DNA from: Nitratireductor sp. ZSWI3
Lineage (GTDB): Bacteria > Pseudomonadota > Alphaproteobacteria > Rhizobiales > Rhizobiaceae
NCBI RefSeq assembly: GCF_024655565.1
Contig: NZ_JANKOF010000037.1
Span: 1-40,945, forward strand
Direction of reading: 5' to 3'
Length of the DNA stretch: 40,945 bases
The position numbers were made by a program, and so were the translations under genes. Shown in pieces: positions 16,940 to 32,419 of this stretch. Positions within the stretch are counted from its first letter, which is position 1; every line of letters begins with the position of its first letter. The notes below the pieces were generated by a model that was not told the origin of the DNA, did no database searches, and worked only from the letters and a program-made list of their open reading frames with translations.

Positions 16940-17277
16940 AGTGGAGGCTTCTGTTGCCAGGTGCCTCCGGACCCCGCTTAGACCTGCGACGGCCTAAGGC
17001 TTGATTTGAAGCTATCGCGCCGCATTAAGCAGCGAGACGTGCCTCCGCATAGTTGTCGTTGGCAACTATAGAGTTTAGCCCGATAACGGTGGTACCATGC
17101 CGAGCGAAAGTCCGATCTTTACACCCTCGTCGATCCTGTTTCGCCCCCATCAGAAGCCGCCCTGCGGAACGGAACGCCTTGCGGCGGTTTCTGGTGGAGG
17201 CGCCGGGCACTGCCCCCGGGTCCGAATGGTTTATTGCACCGGCAGTTTATCGCCATAGTCGGTCGAGCCGACGGTGC
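16940..17277 (-). ncRNA. ssrA: Circularly permuted two-piece tmRNA (ssrA, alphaproteobacterial type)
   Basis: The tag reading frame on the minus strand encodes ANDNYAEARLAA followed by TAA (17068 down to about 17030), preceded by CTATAGTT. The order is permuted. The acceptor piece comes first (17277-17192), ending in an encoded CCA with a T-arm stem CCGGG/CCCGG and loop GGCAGTG. A 43-base intervening segment (17191-17149) follows, then the coding piece starting at 17148 with GGGGGCGAAACAGGATCGACG-type sequence. GGGGGCG (17148-17142) pairs with CGCCTCC (17202-17196) over seven base pairs, including the G3.U70 wobble used for alanyl-tRNA synthetase recognition. The acceptor piece opens with GCACCG, pairing with CGGTGC (17241-17236). 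The coding piece probably ends near the GGAGGC...GCCTCC hairpin around 16943. Outer ends are approximate. Confidence 0.95.
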
Positions 17278-17460
17278 GAATATAGTGATGCCGTCGTGGC
17301 ATGGAAAGGGGATTCGGCGGGAAAAAGGTTTTCGGGATTGACTTGGCGTCGAGCTTTGCGGAAGCTCTCGCACGGTGTGGTGACGTTTTGACGAACGCGC
17401 AGGTTGCGTTAGCCGCCGGCGGGTCGAAACAAGGCCACGATCTGTAATGAGGGAGAGGTC

Positions 17461-23360: not shown

Positions 23361-24251
23361 TCACGGCTGGAGGAATTCCCGCTCCCTGTATCCCTGCAGG
23401 TAGAGCAGGGCGGTCAGGTCGCCATGGTCGATCCGCACCCGCGCCTGGGCCGCGACGGCCGGTTTGGCGTGCAGCGCAACGCCGAGCCCGGCCAGCGCCA
23501 GCATGTCGAGATCGTTGGCGCCGTCGCCGACGGCGATCACCTCTTCGTGCGACAGGCCGTGCGTCGCGGCGAAGTCCGACAGGGCTGCTGCCTTGGCGGC
23601 GCGTCCGAGGATCGGCCTGGCGACCGTGCCGGCAAGACGCCCCTCGGCGGTCAGCAGCCGGTTTGCCTGCTGTGCCTGAAAGCCGAGCCTGGCGCTTATC
23701 GGACCGGTGAAATGCTCGAAGCCGCCGGAAACCAGCGCGGTGAAGGCACCGGCCGCATTCATCGTCGCCACCAGCGCCGGCCCGCCCGCGGCGAGCGTGA
23801 TGCGGCGCTCGATGACGCGGTCGATCACATCGACCGCAAGACCTTCGAGCAGCGCGACGCGCTCCTCGAGGGCCGGCTCGAAGGCGATCTCGCCGTTCAT
23901 CGCCCGGCGGGTGATGTCTGCGACCTTTTCCTTGAGGCCAAGTTCGGCGGCGAGTTCATCGATGCACTCCTGGTCGATCATGGTGGAATCCATGTCGGCA
24001 ATCAGCATCTTCTTACGCCGGCCTTCCGTCTTCTGGACGGCGATGTCGACGGGCTTTCCTTCAAGACGCTGACGCAGGCGCCGTTCGGCTTCTTGCGCAT
24101 CCCCTTCGCCTTCGAGGTGAATATCGCAGGCCACCCCCTCGCAAAGCCAGTCGATGCGGCTTGCATCGAGCGCCTCCATGGCCATAGTCGCAAGCGGCGC
24201 GGACACTGCGCGCTCCGCGGGGCTGGAGATGAGGGTAGCGACGAGAGGCAT
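23361..24251 (-). CDS. serB: Phosphoserine phosphatase
   Basis: A 296-residue SerB catalysing the last step of serine synthesis. The HAD motif I is IADMDSTMI (nucleophile Asp86, general acid Asp88); SGGFEHF gives motif II and [10 protein letters not shown] motif IV. The N-terminal 75 residues form an ACT-like/regulatory region usual in proteobacterial SerB. I chose the ATG at 24251 ([11 protein letters not shown]), the common alphaproteobacterial start. That codon overlaps the miaA ATG on the other strand within a single CATG. It converges on the Do protease gene, 33 bases apart. Confidence 0.95.
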
Positions 24252-25215
24252 GGGCGTTTCCGGACAAGACGACGGGACGAGGCAACTGAAGAACGCGATC
24301 CTGATAGCCGGGCCGACGGCGAGCGGCAAGTCCGCGCTCGCCATGGAGGTCGCGCGCCGGACGGGCGGCGTTATCGTCAACGCCGATTCCATGCAGGTCT
24401 ATTCGGTCCTTTCCGTGCTGACCGCGCGCCCGGATGCCGGCGATCTGGCGGCCGCACCGCATTTCCTCTACGGCCATGTTCCCCCGGCACGGGCCTATTC
24501 GACCGGACGCTGGCTGGACGATGTCGCGGCGCTGGCGCGCAAGGGAGTGTTCACGGGCCGGCGGGCGGTGTTCGTCGGCGGCACGGGGCTTTATTTCCGG
24601 GCCCTGACGGAGGGCTTGTCGCCCATGCCGGCGGTCCCCGAAGATGTCCGCAGAGGCTGGCGGGACCGTTTGGCGGCCGAAGGGCCGGCAGCGCTCCATG
24701 CCCTTCTTGCCGACAGGGACCCGGTGGCGGCCGCCGCCATCCGGCCGTCCGACGGTCAACGCATCGTGCGGGCGCTCGAAGTGCTTGATGCATCGGGGCG
24801 GCCCCTGAGCGACTGGCAGGCCGAGGCTTCGGTGCCGCTGGTGGACGCCGATACCAGCCATGGTTTCGTGCTCGAGCCCGAGCGCGGCCTGCTTGCCGAG
24901 CGCATCGCCACGCGCTTCGACCGGATGATCGGGGAGGGGGCGCTGGACGAGGTGCGGGCGCTGCAAGCGCTCGATCTGGCCTCCGACCTTCCCGCCATGA
25001 AGGCGATCGGTGTCCGTGATCTTGGCGATGCCCTTGCCGGCCGCCAAACCCTTGCGGATGCGGTGGCGCGCACCAAGACCGCCACCCGGCAATATGCGAA
25101 GCGTCAGATGACCTGGTTCCGCAACCAGTTCGGCCCCGAGTGGACGCGGATCGCCATCGACCGGAACACCGAACTCGCCTCTGTTGTCGCACGAATCCTG
25201 ACCGCCAGCGGCTGA
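24250..25215 (+). CDS. miaA: tRNA dimethylallyltransferase
   Basis: A 321-residue MiaA adding the isopentenyl group to A37 of UNN-decoding tRNAs. The P-loop is GPTASGKS (21-28), followed by [23 protein letters not shown] and the C-terminal [15 protein letters not shown] block. I prefer the ATG at 24250, which begins a few residues before the conserved [15 protein letters not shown]. An ATG at 24229 with GGGG upstream is an alternative and would overlap serB by 23 bases. Divergent from serB with no spacer, so each gene's promoter lies inside the other. Confidence 0.95.
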
Positions 25216-25281
25216 AATGCGGCGGTTGGTGCCAGTTATGATTGTAGCGATTAACCTTGCGTAAGTGAGACTGTGCGAGAA

Positions 25282-25307
25282 GAACCCAAAGGGTTTCATT
25301 CGGGTTC
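25282..25307 (+). promoter_or_regulatory. Competing hairpins just before the diguanylate cyclase start
   Basis: GAACCC (25282-25287) can pair either with GGGTTT (25291-25296, using five to six pairs) or with GGGTTC (25302-25307). The last arm ends three bases before ATG 25311, at the expected ribosome binding site, which otherwise lacks a clear Shine-Dalgarno. Confidence 0.35.
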
Positions 25308-25310
25308 GGA

Positions 25311-26093
25311 ATGCGTTTCCACAAGGCAGAGTCGGCATTCTTCGTGTTCGTCACGCTGGTCTTCGGCGCCGGGGCGCTGCTGGCTTACGCCTATCTCATT
25401 CTGCACAACGGAGCCCAGATGCTGCCGCCGCGCGAACAATTGGGGCTCTACACCCAGTTGCTCTTCGTTATCGGTGTGCTGCTGGCGACGGCGATCATCT
25501 TCGGCGTGTTCTTCATCTATCCGCTGATCCGCACGCAGGTTCGCGAGGAAGGCAAGTTGCGGGCGATGACGGAATCGCTCAGCGCGCGCTCGGAATCGCT
25601 GCAGCACGCGGCGTTGACCGACAGCCTGACCGGCACCCAGAACCGCCGGTTCTTCGACGATGCGCTGCGGGAATACCTGCACGAATTCGGCCGCATCGAG
25701 AAACCGGTCGGATTGATGGTGCTCGATCTCGACCACTTCAAGCAGGTCAACGATACCCACGGCCACGATGTCGGCGACAAGGTGCTGCGCGAAGTGGCGC
25801 GCGGGCTGAAGGACCTGACGCGCTATCACGATGTGGTGGCGCGGATGGGGGGCGAGGAATTCGCCATCGTCGCCCCGAACATGAGCCAGGAGGCGCTCGT
25901 CAAGCTTGCCGAGCGCATTCGCAAGGCCGTATCCTCGCTTGTGATCGACACCGGCAATGTGCGCATCCGCGTGACGATCAGTGTCGGCCTGTCCGTCTGG
26001 AATGGCCGGGAATCCTCGGAGGAGCTTTTCCGGCGTGCCGACAAGATGCTCTATGAGGCAAAGCGGCTCGGTCGCAATCGCGTCTGCGCCTGA
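25311..26093 (+). CDS. Membrane-anchored diguanylate cyclase (GGDEF)
   Basis: A 260-residue protein with two transmembrane helices (about 9-31 and 48-71) and a short linker coiled coil (80-100), followed by a GGDEF domain. The active site is GGEEF (180-184), a functional variant, with metal-binding Asp139 in VLDLDHFK. The product-inhibition I-site RYHD (171-174) sits exactly five residues upstream, so cyclic-di-GMP synthesis with feedback is predicted. No sensor domain beyond the membrane segments is visible. It lies 95 bases after miaA and may have its own control (see the hairpin entry). Confidence 0.92.
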   Translation: MRFHKAESAFFVFVTLVFGAGALLAYAYLILHNGAQMLPPREQLGLYTQLLFVIGVLLATAIIFGVFFIYPLIRTQVREEGKLRAMTESLSARSESLQHAALTDSLTGTQNRRFFDDALREYLHEFGRIEKPVGLMVLDLDHFKQVNDTHGHDVGDKVLREVARGLKDLTRYHDVVARMGGEEFAIVAPNMSQEALVKLAERIRKAVSSLVIDTGNVRIRVTISVGLSVWNGRESSEELFRRADKMLYEAKRLGRNRVCA

Positions 26094-26133
26094 GGGCCGT
26101 CAACACGACAGATCTTGCGGGCGCGAAACCCGT

Positions 26134-28002
26134 TCAGCGGTTGCCGAAGCGGTTTCGGTTGAGGGAAGGGACGGTCGGCGAACTGAAACCGCGCTGGCCG
26201 TGCGCCTCGTCCGACCAGAGCGGACGCGCTTCGCTTCCTGAGATCCGTCCTGACGTCGGCTCATAGCCCGCATCGCCGGCCTGAAGCCCGGAGGGGGCCG
26301 CCTCGCCATTCGGGCGCATGGGCGCCGTGCGGGTGCGCCCGGTCTCGCGCAGCCGCTTGACGATGGACGCCAGGTCGATCTCGGCGTCCACCTGCCCGCG
26401 CTGTACGGCCGCCGCTCCGTCCTGGCGCGTCGCCGGCACCACATCGGGCGGCAATTCCTCGAACTTGACGCGCATGGTGGTTGCTACGCCCTCGCCGAAG
26501 GCGATGGCCTCGCGCCGGCCCATGGCCGACAGGAAGGAAAGCGTCGAGGCGGAGGAATCGGCGATCGCAGAGCGGATGATCGCCTGATCCTGATCGTTGG
26601 CGAGGCGCATGGCGAAGACGGTCGAGCATTGCGACAGGACCGTCGGGTCGAGCTCGCCCGGGCGCTGCGTGACGACGCCCAGATAGCAGCCATATTTGCG
26701 CCCCTCCTTGGCGATGCGCGCCAGCGCGTGACGCGTCGGCGCGAAGCCCATCCGCGGATCCGACGGCATGTAGCGGTGAGCCTCCTCGCAGACCACGAGC
26801 AGCTTGAGGCGGCCGTTGCTCCACAGCGCCATGTCGAAGGCGAGGCGGGAGAGGACGGAGCACACGGAGTTGACGACCTCTGGCGGCATGCCGGCCATCT
26901 CGAGGCAGGTGACCGTCTTGCCCTGGCCGGGGATGCGGAAGATCTGGCCGATCGTCTCGTGGATCGTGTCCTCGATCAGGCGCGAGGCGAACATGAAGCG
27001 ATAGCGCGGGTCGTTGAGCGCGGCTTCGATGCGGGCCCTGAGGCTGCGGTAGAGCGGACGGTCGGTCTTCGTCTCGAGCATCCCCATGCGCTCGTCGATG
27101 TCCTTGAGGACGTCTGCCATGCGGTAGGGGACGGGCGTGTCCGCGGTGATGCTGCTCGCTTCGCCGGCCCGCTTCAGGAGACCGCCGGCAGCCGGATTCT
27201 GGTAGATCTGCTTGGCGTGGGGGATGAGATCGCGCAGCAGTTCGACCTCCTCCGGAACCGCCTCGCGGCCGCGGAAAAGCACCTCGACGAACTCCTCCAG
27301 CCGGAACAGCCAGAAGGGCAGATCCAGTGTCGTGGTGTCGATGCGCACGGCATATTCGGGCAGGGCTGCGGCAAACTCGTTGTGCGGATCGAGTATCAGG
27401 ACCCTAAGGTCGGGGCGGGAGGCGATGGTCTTGCGCAGGAGCAACGCCACCGCTGACGATTTGCCGACGCCCGTGGTGCCGACCACCGCAAAATGCCTGT
27501 TCAACGTGTCGTCGACGGCGATGCAGGCGTCGATGGCCTCGTCCTGCGATAGCCTGCCGATGACGGCGGAGTGACGGCCGTTGAGATCGTAGACCGCCTG
27601 CAGATCGCGTGAGCGGATGCGGTGGGCCGGCGCGCCGATGTGCGGATATTCGGTGATGCCGCGGTCGAAGACCGGTGTCGAGCCGCCGTCGCGAACCTCG
27701 CCGATAAGCTCGACGGAAATGGCGATCGGGTTGGCCTCGTTCTCGCTCCAGCGCCGTTCCGGCCGCTCGACGGCGTAGACGAGGCCGACCGTGCGTGTCG
27801 CGCCGAGGTTGATCGAAATCATCTTGCCGACGGTCCAGTGGTTTCCGGAGGTATTGTCCTCCGTGCCGGCGTCGGCCGCAATGGTCGCGCGGGCGCCGTC
27901 GCAATGCACGACGTGTCCCAGCAGGCGCCGCTGCGGCTGATCGGACGCCCGCCGCTCCTGTGATGTCGTCTCGCCCTCGGTGGTCCCGCGTTCCACAAAC
28001 AT
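26134..28002 (-). CDS. HerA-like ATPase (DUF87)
   Basis: A 622-residue FtsK-HerA superfamily ATPase. An N-terminal HAS-barrel-like domain (LLGHVVHCDGARATI, VGKMISINLG, about 25-115) precedes the motor. Walker A is GTTGVGKSS (175-183), Walker B LLVVCEEAHRYM (about 400-411, Glu405-Glu406), followed by an R-finger/sensor region KYGCYLGVVTQRP and STVFAMRLANDQDQAII. The last 70 residues are low-complexity and polar, probably disordered. HerA proteins translocate DNA and often partner with NurA nucleases or Sir2/other effectors; no such partner is next to this gene. It is convergent with the diguanylate cyclase and divergent from the beta-barrel gene. Confidence 0.88.
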   Translation of the reverse strand: MFVERGTTEGETTSQERRASDQPQRRLLGHVVHCDGARATIAADAGTEDNTSGNHWTVGKMISINLGATRTVGLVYAVERPERRWSENEANPIAISVELIGEVRDGGSTPVFDRGITEYPHIGAPAHRIRSRDLQAVYDLNGRHSAVIGRLSQDEAIDACIAVDDTLNRHFAVVGTTGVGKSSAVALLLRKTIASRPDLRVLILDPHNEFAAALPEYAVRIDTTTLDLPFWLFRLEEFVEVLFRGREAVPEEVELLRDLIPHAKQIYQNPAAGGLLKRAGEASSITADTPVPYRMADVLKDIDERMGMLETKTDRPLYRSLRARIEAALNDPRYRFMFASRLIEDTIHETIGQIFRIPGQGKTVTCLEMAGMPPEVVNSVCSVLSRLAFDMALWSNGRLKLLVVCEEAHRYMPSDPRMGFAPTRHALARIAKEGRKYGCYLGVVTQRPGELDPTVLSQCSTVFAMRLANDQDQAIIRSAIADSSASTLSFLSAMGRREAIAFGEGVATTMRVKFEELPPDVVPATRQDGAAAVQRGQVDAEIDLASIVKRLRETGRTRTAPMRPNGEAAPSGLQAGDAGYEPTSGRISGSEARPLWSDEAHGQRGFSSPTVPSLNRNRFGNR

Positions 28003-28198
28003 TGCATCACCCCGCCATTCCCAAGCTGCAAGGTTAACGAGGGGCGGTTAAGGGCGGGTGTTGGGCGATGGTGTAGAGACCGTTAAGGAAACGGCTCGAA
28101 GTCGACCGAGGGGCCGCATTTGACGGGGCCTTTCACAACGGGGTGGGGGCGGCTATCAAGGGGCGGACAGATCGGCACCTGATTCGGGGGGCGCTCCC

Positions 28199-28849
28199 AT
28201 GAACGGACGTGGGCTCATACTTGCGGCGGTGCTCGGCGTTGCCTGTTCCACCGTGAGCCTTGCGGAAGAAAACCGGCCTTTCCTCTACTTCGCCACCAGC
28301 GAACCCTTCGCCGATCCCGGTGCGCCGGCCCGGCTGAACGATATCCACGTGTTCGGCGGCGTCTTTGCGCAAAACTCCTTTGGCGGCGTCCTCGAATTCT
28401 GGGAAACGGACTATCTGAGCAGCTACATGGTCGGCGCCGTCTACGGGCGCGACCTTGCCGAACTCGGTGCCGGGTTCGTGCTTGGCGGCGTCGCCGGGGC
28501 GGCGCTCCGTTTCGGCAAGGATGACGACACCAGCGGCGAGTTCTGGGCCGGTGTCAGGCTCCGCCATCGCGGGCTTGTCATCGGCGACCTGGCCATATCC
28601 CCGGGGTTCACCGCAGGCTTCAGCCTCGTCACCGCGCCGACGGACGTGGAACGGCAGCGCGAGATCGCCTATGACGGCGATGCGACCTTCCTGGGGTTCC
28701 TGGGCCCGGAGCTGGCGTTCAAGCTGCGGCAGGCGCCCAATGTCGAGTTCGTCTATCAACTGCATCACCGCTCCGGAGCCGACGGAACCTTCGGCGATTT
28801 CGGCGAAGGATCGAACGCCAGCACGTTCGGCTTGCGCTACCGGTTTTGA
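28199..28849 (+). CDS. Outer-membrane beta-barrel, PagL-like acyloxyacyl hydrolase candidate
   Basis: A 216-residue secreted protein with a signal peptide (cleavage near SLAEE, residues 20-24), alternating hydrophobic strands and a C-terminal aromatic residue (FGLRYRF), the pattern of an outer-membrane barrel. The spacing His190-x-Ser192 with Glu203 eleven residues after the serine resembles the His-x-Ser...Glu catalytic site of the lipid A 3-O-deacylase PagL, although the local motif is HHRSGADG, not the usual HxSN. If functional it would trim lipid A acyl chains. The alternative is an uncharacterised barrel. Divergent from the HerA gene. Confidence 0.6.
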   Translation: MNGRGLILAAVLGVACSTVSLAEENRPFLYFATSEPFADPGAPARLNDIHVFGGVFAQNSFGGVLEFWETDYLSSYMVGAVYGRDLAELGAGFVLGGVAGAALRFGKDDDTSGEFWAGVRLRHRGLVIGDLAISPGFTAGFSLVTAPTDVERQREIAYDGDATFLGFLGPELAFKLRQAPNVEFVYQLHHRSGADGTFGDFGEGSNASTFGLRYRF

Positions 28850-28867
28850 CGAGCCCGACAAAGCCGG

Positions 28868-28897
28868 TTGACAGTTCCGCTCCGGCAACCTTATTGT
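28868..28897 (+). promoter_or_regulatory. Promoter of the ilvBN attenuator leader
   Basis: A consensus TTGACA (28868-28873), an 18-base spacer and TATTGT (28892-28897). Transcription would begin about 28903-28906, at or just before the leader-peptide ATG, so the leader may be translated without a 5' UTR. Confidence 0.7.
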
Positions 28898-28905
28898 GCG
28901 CCGCC

Positions 28906-28959
28906 ATGAAGACAAGAAACATTCTTATCGTAGGAAGGCGCATGGGCAAGGCGGCGTAG
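28906..28959 (+). CDS. ilvBN leader peptide (branched-chain amino acid attenuator)
   Basis: A 17-codon ORF encoding MKTRNILIVGRRMGKAA, with Ile-Leu-Ile-Val in a row at codons 6-9, the three branched-chain end products of the pathway. The codons (ATT, CTT, ATC, GTA) include ones that are uncommon in this GC-rich genome, which would sharpen stalling. It is followed by the alternative stems and the terminator described separately, then ilvB. No Shine-Dalgarno precedes it, consistent with a leaderless message. Confidence 0.88.
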   Translation: MKTRNILIVGRRMGKAA

Positions 28960-29016
28960 CCGTCTGGCGAAAGCCTCTCATGCGCGAAACACAGGCTCCT
29001 TCGGGGGCCTTTTTTA
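28938..29016 (+). promoter_or_regulatory. Transcription attenuator upstream of ilvB
   Basis: Segment 1:2 is GCGCATG (28938-28944) with CATGCGC (28979-28985), extended inward by AGGC (28949-28952) with GCCT (28973-28976). Segment 3:4 is the terminator AGGCTCC (28993-28999), loop TTCG, GGGGCCT (29004-29010) with a six-base T-run (29010-29015). AGCCT (28972-28976) can instead pair with AGGCT (28993-28997), the 2:3 antiterminator. A ribosome stalled at codons 6-9 would cover segment 1 and favour read-through. Confidence 0.82.
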
Positions 29017-29089
29017 TTGGCCCGGTGTTCCTTTGGGCACACGGGGCAGCTAAATCACCTTCGCCGGGTACAGAGAACGGATCGATACG

Positions 29090-30892
29090 ATGAACAAGGC
29101 AGAGTCAGGGTCAGCAACGGACGCTTCGTCCCGCCACGAGATGACGGGCGCCGAGATGGTCGTGCAGGCGCTCAAGGACAATGGGGTCGAGCACATCTTC
29201 GGATACCCTGGCGGCGCCGTACTTCCCATCTATGATGAGCTTTTTCAGCAGGACGCGATCCAGCACGTTCTGGTGCGCCACGAGCAGGGCGCCGGTCACG
29301 CCGCCGAAGGCTATGCGCGCTCGACGGGCAAGGCCGGCGTGATGCTGGTGACGTCCGGTCCCGGAGCGACCAATGCCGTGACCCCGCTGCAGGACGCGTT
29401 GATGGATTCCATCCCGCTGGTCTGCATCAGCGGGCAGGTGCCCACGACGCTGATCGGCTCCGATGCCTTCCAGGAATGCGACACGGTCGGCATCACGCGC
29501 CCCTGCACCAAGCACAACTGGCTGGTGAAGGACGTCAACCAGCTCTCGGCGATCATCCACGAGGCCTTCCACGTGGCCACGACCGGCCGGCCGGGCCCGG
29601 TGGTCGTCGACATCCCCAAGGACATCCAGTTCGCCAAGGGGACCTACACGCCGCCGCAGACCGCGCCGCGCACCAGCTATCAGCCGCAGGTGCAGGGCAA
29701 TATGGAGCAGATCAAGGCAGCCATCGCTTTGATGGCGCAGGCGAAGAAGCCGGTCATCTATTCCGGCGGCGGCGTCGTCAATGCCGGCCCGGAGGCGAGC
29801 CATCTGCTGCGTGAGCTGGTCGAACTGACCGGCTTCCCGATCACCTCGACGCTGATGGGCCTCGGTGCCTATCCCGCCTCGGGCAAGAACTGGCTGGGCA
29901 TGCTCGGCATGCACGGCACCTACGAAGCCAATATGGCGATGCATGATTGCGACGTCATGCTGTGCATCGGCGCCCGTTTCGACGATCGCATCACCGGACG
30001 CCTCGACGCCTTTTCGCCGAACTCGCGCAAGATCCACATCGATGTCGATCCTTCCTCGATCAACAAGAACGTGCGCGTCGACGTGCCGATCATCGGCGAT
30101 GCGGGCCGCGTTCTGGAGGATCTGGTGCGGCTGTGGCGTGCCACGGCGAAGGCCGACAAGCAGGCGCTGAAGCCGTGGTGGACGCAGATCGACATCTGGC
30201 GGGCGCGGGATTCGCTTGCCTATCGGCCGAACGACGACGTCATCATGCCGCAATATGCGATCCAGCGCCTCTATGAGCTCACCAAGGACCGCGACGTCTA
30301 CATCACCACGGAGGTCGGCCAGCACCAGATGTGGGCCGCGCAGCATTTCGGCTTCGAGGCGCCCAACCGCTGGATGACCTCGGGTGGCCTCGGCACCATG
30401 GGATACGGCCTGCCGGCGGCGCTCGGCGTGCAGATCGCCCATCCCGGCGCGCTGGTGATCGACATCGCCGGCGATGCCTCCGTGCAGATGACGATCCAGG
30501 AGATGAGCGCGGCGGTGCAGCACAATGCGCCGATCAAGATCTTCATCCTCAACAACCAGTACATGGGCATGGTGCGCCAATGGCAGCAGCTCCTGCACGG
30601 CAACCGCCTGTCGCATTCCTATACGGAGGCGATGCCCGATTTCGTCAAGCTGGCGGAAGCCTATGGCTGCCACGGCATCCTGTGCGACAAGCCCGGCAAG
30701 CTCGACGATGCGATCCGCGAGATGATCGCGGTCGACAAGCCGGTGATCTTCGACTGCCGCGTGGCGGCGCTCGCCAACTGCTTCCCGATGATCCCGTCCG
30801 GCAAGGCGCACAACGAGATGCTGCTGCCGGACGAGGCAACCGACGAAGCGGTGGCGACGGCCATCGGCGAGGAAGGCAGGCAGTTGGTGTAG
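29090..30892 (+). CDS. ilvB: Acetolactate synthase large (catalytic) subunit
   Basis: A 600-residue ThDP- and FAD-dependent enzyme, first committed step of valine, leucine and isoleucine synthesis. The ThDP-activating glutamate is Glu65 in LVRHEQGAGHAAEGYARSTG. The central domain contains GLGAYPASGKNWLGMLGMHG, and the C-terminal ThDP/Mg motif starts at GDASVQMTIQEM and ends with NNQYMGMVRQW. Expression is controlled by the upstream leader-peptide attenuator (28906-29016); the start ATG lies 74 bases after its T-run. ilvN follows after 75 bases. Confidence 0.98.
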   Translation: MNKAESGSATDASSRHEMTGAEMVVQALKDNGVEHIFGYPGGAVLPIYDELFQQDAIQHVLVRHEQGAGHAAEGYARSTGKAGVMLVTSGPGATNAVTPLQDALMDSIPLVCISGQVPTTLIGSDAFQECDTVGITRPCTKHNWLVKDVNQLSAIIHEAFHVATTGRPGPVVVDIPKDIQFAKGTYTPPQTAPRTSYQPQVQGNMEQIKAAIALMAQAKKPVIYSGGGVVNAGPEASHLLRELVELTGFPITSTLMGLGAYPASGKNWLGMLGMHGTYEANMAMHDCDVMLCIGARFDDRITGRLDAFSPNSRKIHIDVDPSSINKNVRVDVPIIGDAGRVLEDLVRLWRATAKADKQALKPWWTQIDIWRARDSLAYRPNDDVIMPQYAIQRLYELTKDRDVYITTEVGQHQMWAAQHFGFEAPNRWMTSGGLGTMGYGLPAALGVQIAHPGALVIDIAGDASVQMTIQEMSAAVQHNAPIKIFILNNQYMGMVRQWQQLLHGNRLSHSYTEAMPDFVKLAEAYGCHGILCDKPGKLDDAIREMIAVDKPVIFDCRVAALANCFPMIPSGKAHNEMLLPDEATDEAVATAIGEEGRQLV

Positions 30893-30967: not shown

Positions 30968-31540
30968 ATGAACGCTCAGCTTCAACCGACGGGTTCGGCC
31001 TACTTCATCACCAAGGAAACCGAGGCCAGCGAGCGGCGCACCCTTGCCATCCTGGTCGACAACGAGCCGGGTGTCCTTGCCCGCGTCATCGGCCTCTTCT
31101 CCGGCCGCGGCTACAACATCGACAGCCTCACGGTCTCGGAGACCGAGCACGAAAAGCACCTGTCGCGCATCACCATCGTGACGCGCGGCACGGGGCATGT
31201 GCTCGAGCAGATCAAGCATCAGCTCGAGCGCATCGTGCCGGTGCACCGCGTGGTCGATCTGTCGGTGGTGGCCGACGAGCGCGGGCACGACCGGCCCATG
31301 GAGCGCGAGCTGGCGCTGGTGAAGGTGCGCGGGCAGGGCGACGACCGCGTCGAGGCGCTGCGGCTCGCCGATGCCTTCCGTGCACAGGTGATCGATGCCA
31401 ACACCGAACACTTCATCTTCGAGGTCACCGGCCGTGTGTCGAAGATCGAGCAGTTCATCGCGATCATGACCCCGCTCGGCCTCGTCGAGGTCTGCCGCAC
31501 GGGCGTCGCCGCCATGAACCGCGGGCCGGAAGGCATGTAG
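30968..31540 (+). CDS. ilvN: Acetolactate synthase small (regulatory) subunit
   Basis: A 190-residue IlvN/IlvH-type regulatory subunit. The N-terminal ACT domain (TLAILVDNEPGVLARVIGLFSGRGYNIDSLTVSETE, about 25-60) binds valine and confers feedback inhibition. The C-terminal half (ERELALVKVRG onward, TGRVSKIEQFIAIMTPLGLVEVCRTGVAAMNRGPEG) is the conserved domain that activates the large subunit. Cotranscribed with ilvB, its obligate partner. Confidence 0.97.
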   Translation: MNAQLQPTGSAYFITKETEASERRTLAILVDNEPGVLARVIGLFSGRGYNIDSLTVSETEHEKHLSRITIVTRGTGHVLEQIKHQLERIVPVHRVVDLSVVADERGHDRPMERELALVKVRGQGDDRVEALRLADAFRAQVIDANTEHFIFEVTGRVSKIEQFIAIMTPLGLVEVCRTGVAAMNRGPEGM

Positions 31541-31660
31541 CGCGGCCCGCGACGGGGACAATTTTCCGCCCGACGGTGACAAGTTCGCGATGGCCGCCGC
31601 GCGCATCCAGGTCAATAATGCTGACCGAATTTGCGATGAAACCTGGCCGCAGCGTGCGTG

Positions 31661-31756
31661 CCTTCGTCCTCACCCTCGTGGTTCGACAAGCTCACCATGA
31701 GGGTGAGGACGAAGGCAGACAGCAGCCCTCATGGTGAGCTTGTCGAACCACGAGGG
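31661..31756. repeat. Perfect 31-bp inverted repeat pair with nested 16-bp palindrome
   Basis: The unit 31673-31703 (CCCTCGTGGTTCGACAAG followed by CTCACCATGAGGG) is repeated without mismatch in inverted orientation at 31726-31756. The first copy also lies inside a second perfect palindrome, CCTTCGTCCTCACCCT (31661-31676) against 31700-31715. It shares its 27-base core with the pair at 1485-1629. It fills most of the 282-base gap between ilvN and the LysE gene, which holds no other supportable feature. Confidence 0.95.
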
Positions 31757-31822
31757 CGGACTGCAGTGCGCGGCTGCCAATCGCGCAACACAATTCAACC
31801 AGCCCCAAACCGGTTTCCCGCC

Positions 31823-32419
31823 ATGTCCTTGGACGTCTTTCTCGCGCTTCTCGTCTTCTCCTTCGTATCGTCGGTCACGCCGGGGCCGAACAATTTCATG
31901 CTTCTCGCCTCGGGGGTGAATTTCGGCTTCCGGCGCACGATCCCGCACATGCTGGGCATCGCCGGCGGCTTTGCCTCGCTGCTCCTGGCGGTGGGCTTCG
32001 GGCTCGGCGCGGTGCTCAACGCCTTTCCGGCGCTGCACACGGGGCTCAAGCTCGCCGGCGGCGCCTATCTCCTCTATCTCGCCTGGCGCATCGCCATGGC
32101 ACGCGCCCTGGGGCCGGACAGAGGCGGCAAGGGCGATCCGATGACCTTTCTCGAGGCGGCTGCGTTCCAATGGGTCAATCCCAAGGCCTGGGTGATGGCG
32201 CTGACGGCGATGGCGGTCTACACCGACCCGGCGGCGCCCTTCGTGACCGTGCTGCTGGTGGCGCTCGCCTTCGTGCTGGTCAATTTTCCGAGCGTTTCGG
32301 TGTGGGCCGGCTTCGGCGTCGCCCTGCGCGGCTTCCTCGCCGATCCCGCGCGGCTCAAATGGTTCAACATCGCCATGGGTCTGGCGCTGGCGGCGACGCT
32401 GTGGCCGATGCTGCGCTGA
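31823..32419 (+). CDS. LysE-family amino acid exporter
   Basis: A 198-residue inner-membrane protein with about six hydrophobic helices and the LysE/RhtB opening VSSVTPGPNNFMLLASGVNFGFRRTIPHMLGI, followed by the conserved KLAGGAYLLYLAWR and FQWVNPKAW blocks. Members export amino acids such as threonine, homoserine, lysine or cysteine; substrate unknown here. I chose the ATG at 31823; the reading from 31658 merely translates the repeat element. The stop codon abuts the stop of the convergent GH9 gene with no spacer. Confidence 0.92.
   Translation: MSLDVFLALLVFSFVSSVTPGPNNFMLLASGVNFGFRRTIPHMLGIAGGFASLLLAVGFGLGAVLNAFPALHTGLKLAGGAYLLYLAWRIAMARALGPDRGGKGDPMTFLEAAAFQWVNPKAWVMALTAMAVYTDPAAPFVTVLLVALAFVLVNFPSVSVWAGFGVALRGFLADPARLKWFNIAMGLALAATLWPMLR

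Follow-up and report, generated by a model that had tools for sequence, protein, structure and literature searches.

In the ilvL, thrL, trpL and hisL leaders of Escherichia coli, a short upstream open reading frame (uORF) with codons for product amino acids, together with a terminator, precedes the first gene of the operon. According to a review (PMC6123439), putative leader peptides are found before branched-chain genes across various Gram-negative bacteria. An ilvB leader peptide of alphaproteobacteria has been described by Vitreschak et al. (2004), as cited in a section of PMC1273637, and the Caulobacter ilvBN leader has tandem Ile and Val codons and a terminator (Tarleton et al., 1994, as cited in a section of PMC4117421). 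Compared through these citing descriptions, the element analyzed here is like both in its position upstream of ilvB(N). The attenuator RNA rnTrpL of Sinorhizobium meliloti begins at the AUG of its uORF (excerpts of PMC10117765 and PMC7298713), and the same start is predicted for the present leader. rnTrpL differs in its Trp codons and its association with trpE, and action in trans has been reported for it in the same excerpts.

The locus lies in a 40,945-nucleotide stretch of DNA from Nitratireductor sp. ZSWI3 (contig NZ_JANKOF010000037.1, positions 1 to 40,945), which is called the window below. The element in front of ilvBN is, with high probability, a ribosome-dependent transcription attenuator, and it is identical in kind, over its whole length, to the Rfam family RF02502. 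Rfam labels this family 'Rhizobiales sRNA' Atu_C8, of the type 'Gene; sRNA', and the fields shown contain no link to ilvB. On the codon-level evidence given below, this sRNA is interpreted here as an attenuator that serves ilvBN in a bacterial family and in much of its order. RF02502 was reportedly first found, by Wilms in 2012, as an Agrobacterium sRNA. In the literature searched it appears in one paper, as a benchmark entry, and 'ilv' was not found in the main texts of the rhizobial and agrobacterial RNA papers searched.

The ilvBN leader of the window

The RF02502 match occupies positions 28905-29026 of the forward strand, on which all features of the leader lie, and extends from position 1 to position 122 of the 122-position covariance model (108.5 bits, E 4.1e-23; the gathering cut-off is 50 bits). 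The uORF of 17 codons that had been predicted originally is present at 28906-28959, with its ATG at 28906 and its TAG at 28957-28959, and encodes MKTRNILIVGRRMGKAA. Its Ile-Leu-Ile-Val run (ATT CTT ATC GTA, 28921-28932) contains the putative stall codons, the last of which begins 8 nt 5' of a hairpin stem, helix 1. The 5' arm of helix 1 (GCGCATGGG, 28938-28946) is within the uORF and pairs with the 3' arm (CTCATGCGC, 28977-28985), as indicated by both folding and covariation. Helix 1 encloses two further hairpins obtained by folding: an inner hairpin (28949-28965, pairing 28949-28955 with 28959-28965), the loop of which holds the stop codon of the leader, and a small hairpin GGCGAAAGCC (28966-28975, pairing 28966-28968 with 28973-28975). 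The first of the two pairings proposed earlier (28938-28952 with 28973-28985) corresponds to this compound hairpin with slightly loose coordinates, and the second engages the bases AGCCT (28972-28976), which complement AGGCT (28993-28997) over 5 bp.

The intrinsic terminator was located by a terminator scan and by folding at 28993-29015, exactly where it had been placed originally. It consists of a 7-bp stem (28993-29010) with a TTCG loop and a run of six T residues (29010-29015), and 0.5 terminator-like sites would be expected by chance in the 451 bases scanned. Between the end of the T-run at 29015 and the ilvB ATG at 29090 there are 74 bases. The gene ilvB (29090-30892) encodes the large subunit of acetolactate synthase (NF006581, 1213.7 bits) and ilvN (30968-31540) the small subunit (NF008864, 219.6 bits). 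Upstream of the uORF, a sigma-70-like promoter sequence TTGACA-18-TATTGT (28868-28897) ends 8 nt before the AUG. Transcription would thus be predicted to start at about 28904-28906, making the leader mRNA leaderless or nearly so.

The arrangement is more than a chance occurrence, as is evident from the RF02502 score and from shuffled sequences. The leader from 28905 to 29018 folds with -43.2 kcal/mol (z = -3.55), a value equaled or bettered in 2 of 200 shuffles, and an ATG-initiated frame of 10-40 codons with at least four consecutive Ile, Leu or Val codons was found in 4 of 1000 dinucleotide shuffles of 28850-29089. The deciding argument is that the element is conserved among relatives. The identity with RF02502, the existence of a published ilvB leader peptide and the promoter-like site near the AUG had all been missed in the original prediction.

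The surroundings of the leader contain several other features. The region 23361-28849 carries serB (-), miaA (+), a gene for a GGDEF protein (+) and one for a HerA-like ATPase (-), and the 216-residue open reading frame just before the leader has no Pfam or NCBIfam match at E 0.001. Downstream of ilvBN, in the same orientation, is a gene for a LysE-family translocator, a protein of the amino-acid exporter type (31658-32419, +). Between ilvN and this gene lies an inverted repeat (31673-31756) whose 31-nt arms match perfectly and are 22 nt apart. An alphaproteobacterial tmRNA gene is located at 16940-17311 (-) (293.5 bits).

Distribution and conservation of the leader

A scan of the order with RF02502 gave matches at E <= 0.001 in 161 of 297 genomes, 49 of which are above the family cut-off. 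Within the family of the window's organism, 146 of 151 genomes have a copy, and the five without one are genomes of 1.2-2.0 Mb. The genome of the window has a single copy, at ilvBN; a second hit obtained with a model built from the leaders themselves (E 1.8) was taken as noise. A class-wide search with such a model found 6 of 289 genomes, including the window's own, and one of the six is a false match to a tRNA (L222). Because the filters of this search were strict, absence outside the order is not claimed.

Among the matches listed, 130 loci were examined (30, including the window copy, and 100 further ones, the weakest being left out). An ilvB homolog is downstream in 126 of them. The remaining four precede a gene for a transporter of the MFS type, in genomes that all carry another copy at ilvB. 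Each of 32 loci inspected from the family has an ilvB homolog downstream, which in two (L245 and L259) is a second, more distant ilvB of 72-75% identity. Second leader copies before a second, more distant ilvB-like gene occur in three genomes (L032 in G023, L259 in G642 and L245 in G725), and the idea that a second copy always belongs to an MFS gene was dropped on account of these. The leader peptides of L032 and L245 start with MKIAMVL, as do those of many MFS copies. Leader pairs about 2.7 kb apart (L057 and L071 in G260, L101 and L111 in G223) represent tandem ilvB genes with a leader each, and the gene in L265 looks shortened (390 residues).

An ORF starting with ATG or GTG near the start of the model is present in 126 of the 130 leaders, 119 of which are distinct; this set includes the four MFS copies. 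The four others (L037, L040, L050 and L052) seem to begin further upstream. Long ORFs with upstream TTG starts were set aside, the TTG being part of the -35 box in the cases inspected. Ile, Leu and Val account for 703 of 1868 residues in frame as against 243 and 205 of 1868 in the other two frames, and the longest run of these residues is 4-6 in 105 of 119 leaders in frame and never more than 3 out of frame. All three amino acids are represented in 116 of the 126 leaders. The two leader peptides from the same genus are MMTGNILIVGRRMGKAA and MMTRNILIVGRRMGKAA, and a leader peptide containing Ile-Ile-Leu-Val-Val can likewise be read from the Rfam consensus when AU is prefixed to it.

The runs are written in synonyms that are rare in the genes they precede. 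Across 115 distinct ilvB leaders, GTA has a frequency of 0.64 within the runs, ATT one of 0.63 and CTT one of 0.50, compared to 0.02, 0.15 and 0.08, respectively, in ilvB genes. The window's own ilvB uses GTA for 1 of 44 Val codons and ATT for none of 40 Ile codons. The distance from the start of the last Ile, Leu or Val codon to helix 1 is nearly fixed, being 8 nt in 102 of 116 leaders, 5 nt in 11 and 9 nt in 3. The second codon before helix 1 encodes Val in 85, Leu in 21, Ile in 7 and Ser in 3 of 116 ilvB leaders, and the stop codon falls within the loop of helix 1 in all 119 ilvB leaders.

Helix 1 covaries. In an alignment of 43 leaders (40 from ilvB and 3 MFS copies), 7 of its 10 pairs have changed on both sides, with 93% of cells paired. 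The covariation score of helix 1 and the terminator taken together is 0.397, compared to 0.231 in shuffled alignments (none of 500 as high) and 0.107-0.146 when the pairing is slid. Two of the five measures gave no clear excess in these 43 leaders: pairs changed on both sides numbered 9 against 8.1 in shuffles, with 193 of 500 shuffles reaching that number, and there were 30 further pair types compared to 26.9 in shuffles (32 of 500). In an unbiased covariation scan covering 93 non-redundant ilvB leaders, the five top-ranking pairs all belong to helix 1 (z 8.6-22.7), and the next-ranked pair (z 7.0), complementary in just 29%, joins two anchors of nearly the same bases. Conserved codons with their rare synonyms, together with a covarying main hairpin, bear out the original proposal of a leader-peptide element for ilvBN.

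The terminators of 123 distinct leaders, MFS copies included, have a mean stability of -12.5 kcal/mol (range -15.9 to -2.8). The bases following the T-run (29010-29025 in the window, and their counterparts in relatives) are conserved and TTGCC-like, though they are beyond the expected end of the RNA. A hairpin after the T-run is found in 39 of 66 MFS copies (11.2 in shuffles) and in 21 of 118 ilvB copies (16.1 in shuffles); as it is hardly enriched in the ilvB copies, it is not considered part of the general mechanism. The motif TTGAC lies 35-39 nt 5' of the ATG in 31 of 119 ilvB leaders as against 65 of 67 MFS copies, the latter from the best 80 of 214 relatives of the MFS gene. The spacing of the promoter-like site thus favors a leaderless start in the window and in these MFS copies. 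Since the motif occurs at the matching distance in so few ilvB leaders, such a start is not claimed for the whole order.

A proposed route from the stalled ribosome to the terminator

The direction of regulation, the start of transcription and the way in which terminator formation is prevented can be inferred as follows. Transcription would begin at the AUG or within a few bases of it, and ribosomes would therefore load on a leaderless uORF. In the normal state, the ribosome would pass the Ile-Leu-Ile-Val codons and reach the stop codon in the loop of helix 1. Transcription would then terminate at the T-run, and the released RNA, some 110 nt long, would be the one listed by Rfam as the sRNA Atu_C8. 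With no ribosome on the leader, the terminator would likewise be free to form. When charged Ile, Leu or Val tRNA is short, the ribosome would stall on ATT, CTT, ATC or GTA. Because these codons are positioned just before helix 1, helix 1 could not close, and its freed 3' side would compete with the 5' arm of the terminator, allowing RNA polymerase to read into ilvBN. In the window, a weak antiterminator, AGCCU:AGGCU, could block the terminator; no antiterminator is conserved across the family.

This pairing (28972-28976 with 28993-28997) is the second of those originally proposed. Its complementarity in the window is real, and among 45 leaders of the family the full complement is present in two, namely the window and L234. 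The two leaders from the same genus read AGCAC and AGCUC at the corresponding arm and have the full complement in neither case. The four-base core AGCC:GGCU is found in 18 of the 45, but the small GGC/GCC hairpin is built from these very bases. In the unbiased scan of the 93 ilvB leaders no antiterminator pair covaries. Conservation in relatives, which the original prediction had named as its check, thus extends to the codons and to the first pairing and not to the second.

Folding at equilibrium, with the ribosome absent, stalled or at the stop codon, gives the terminator in every state, here and in the E. coli controls, and it is not used as evidence because the controls behave alike. Folding was also carried out on truncated RNAs, in which the 3' arm of the terminator has not yet been made. 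With a single stall position, pairing of the terminator 5' arm with upstream bases is 0.55 in ilvB leaders (0.59 in shuffled sequences) and 0.37 in MFS copies (0.58 shuffled). The E. coli leaders thrL, ilvL, trpL and hisL, when stalled in the middle of the run, give 1.00, 0.81, 0.70 and 1.00, respectively, compared to 0.43-0.59 in shuffles; when stalled at the last codon, they give 0.28, 0.27, 0.70 and 0.28. In this folding, the E. coli leaders thus have a strong antiterminator when stalled mid-run, unlike the RF02502 family. As the drop at the last codon demonstrates that the outcome depends on the stall position, the folding was repeated at 11 positions, with 60 leaders drawn per set.

Attenuation could also come about in another way, to which slightly less than an even chance is given. 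The attenuation would be real and would do without the classical 1:2, 2:3 and 3:4 pairings; helix 1 would act as a guard, and stalling would permit non-specific, lineage-specific pairings that weaken the terminator, or else the last step would proceed via RNA polymerase pausing or Rho. When the RNA of the 60 ilvB leaders is free from helix 1 on, the upstream pairing of the terminator 5' arm is 0.07-0.09 (0.58 in shuffled sequences), and it is 0.28 with 12 nt more free. Blocking the first 6-12 nt of helix 1 raises it to 0.57-0.63, which is the shuffled level of 0.56-0.60; the MFS copies with helix 1 blocked reach 0.39-0.48, below their shuffled level of 0.58-0.61. Helix-1 3' arms are found in C-rich and in G-rich versions with the same kind of terminator, and the 45 highest-ranking pairs from the scan of 93 leaders include no complementary pair joining helix 1 or its loop to the terminator. 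These observations favor a guarding helix, but the folding predictions are rough and ignore kinetics, and in the window itself AGCCU:AGGCU together with GAA:UUC pairs at 0.61-0.63 when helix 1 is blocked by 6-12 nt, while its four-base core recurs in the leaders counted above. Judging from the folding models, either the switch would be weak and lineage-specific, or it would work in some way not visible here. The lack of a conserved antiterminator makes this family a good one for asking how little structure a stall-controlled terminator needs.

Two other explanations dispense with attenuation as the main role. In one, the RNA is chiefly a stable sRNA acting in trans, perhaps with a functional leader peptide as in rnTrpL/peTrpL, and its position at ilvB is only its birthplace. 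The Rfam type 'Gene; sRNA' is in keeping with this, as is the precedent of rnTrpL, which is leaderless, starts at the AUG, acts in trans and has a functional peptide according to excerpts of PMC10117765 and PMC7298713. Also in its favor is the near-invariance of RMG in the peptides of the MFS copies (R in 65, M in 65 and G in 63 of 65, from the best 80 of 214 relatives). This conservation can, however, follow from helix 1, since in other families the helix-1 pairs change and the peptide changes with them. The copies, moreover, track ilvB (126 of 130) or one MFS gene and are not free-standing, and the explanation is considered unlikely; a role in trans need not exclude attenuation. According to the other, the terminator is constitutive, the short ORF before it has no connection with it, and the occurrence of Ile-Leu-Ile-Val is due to chance. 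In a single sequence such a run is rare yet possible, as the shuffles of the window indicate. Conservation specific to the frame and to rare codons in more than 100 distinct leaders, at a fixed spacing from a covarying helix, makes this explanation extremely improbable. Ribosome-dependent attenuation of ilvBN is thus the preferred reading of the element.

Leader copies at an MFS transporter gene

The loci related to the four exceptional MFS genes were collected by scanning contigs with an alignment of the four proteins, and the best 80 of 214 relatives were examined. With a leader model (R1) made from 43 leaders, 3 of which are from MFS genes, 67 of these 80 proved to have a leader immediately in front of the gene, and RF02502 itself matches in 18 of 20 MFS loci submitted. 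The MFS-linked leaders are found within L132-L211 (the 67 of 80) and in L014, L015, L033, L034 and L218, the last of which (G402) belongs to another order of the same class and has its copy before the same type of MFS gene. The carriers are Rhizobium, Mesorhizobium, Phyllobacterium, Paramesorhizobium, Roseibium, Devosia and Pelagibacterium. The 13 loci without a leader are from Variovorax (2), Planobispora, gammaproteobacteria (2), Kiloniellaceae (3) and four other alphaproteobacteria, and include L191, which is cut at a contig end. The window's genome has no MFS copy of the leader and no close relative of the MFS protein, the best having 39% identity (L223).

Close kinship among many of the 67 loci means that the counts do not stand for independent events. 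A tree was made of 74 of the 80 proteins (L180, L186, L203 and L210 were dropped owing to stops in the matched stretch, and L152 and L191 were left out). The leader is present in 58 of 58 members of a Rhizobium-Mesorhizobium-Phyllobacterium clade and in 7 of 8 members of a Devosia-Pelagibacterium-Roseibium-Paramesorhizobium clade, and its presence requires three changes on the tree, a number as low as which was reached in none of 500 shuffles.

The MFS copies are full RF02502-type leaders with their own promoter-like site and terminator. Among those from the best 80 of 214 relatives, Val is encoded at the two positions preceding helix 1 in each of the 65 distinct leaders, with variation in the third base of these codons; the second codon before the helix is GTA in 36, GTG in 28 and GTT in 1. 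Ile, Leu and Val occur together in just 32 of the 67 leaders of this set, Ile and Leu having become dispensable, and the last such codon begins 8 nt (38 leaders), 5 nt (25) or 17 nt (2) before helix 1. The MFS proteins are members of the Bcr/CflA/EmrD group, with scores above the NCBIfam TIGR00710 cut-off in two of four and EmrD (2gfp) as the nearest solved chain. By this relationship they would be exporters.

On balance, if with limited confidence, it appears that an EmrD/Bcr-type MFS efflux gene has acquired a copy of the ilvBN attenuator, and that this copy has been adjusted to valine. If it works as it would at ilvBN, a fall in charged Val-tRNA would switch the pump on. The nearest precedent found is the BmrB leader of bmrCD in Bacillus subtilis, a ribosome-mediated attenuator of a drug transporter (excerpts of PMC4191407). 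According to the same excerpts, that transporter is of the ABC type and is induced by antibiotics acting on protein synthesis, and BmrB is not of an amino-acid type that also serves a biosynthetic operon. No report of an MFS-linked leader was found in the literature searched, which comprised titles and the beginnings of abstracts, with most subscription journals outside its coverage. The ilvBN element itself is of a known kind; the valine-tuned leader on an efflux-type gene looks new.

If this is true, the cell could expel compounds that starve it of valine, such as inhibitors of acetolactate synthase or of valyl-tRNA synthetase, or toxic valine analogs. Alternatively, the benefit could be the relief of a branched-chain imbalance. 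In either case, export would be tied to tRNA charging, a form of starvation-sensed efflux in root-nodule bacteria.
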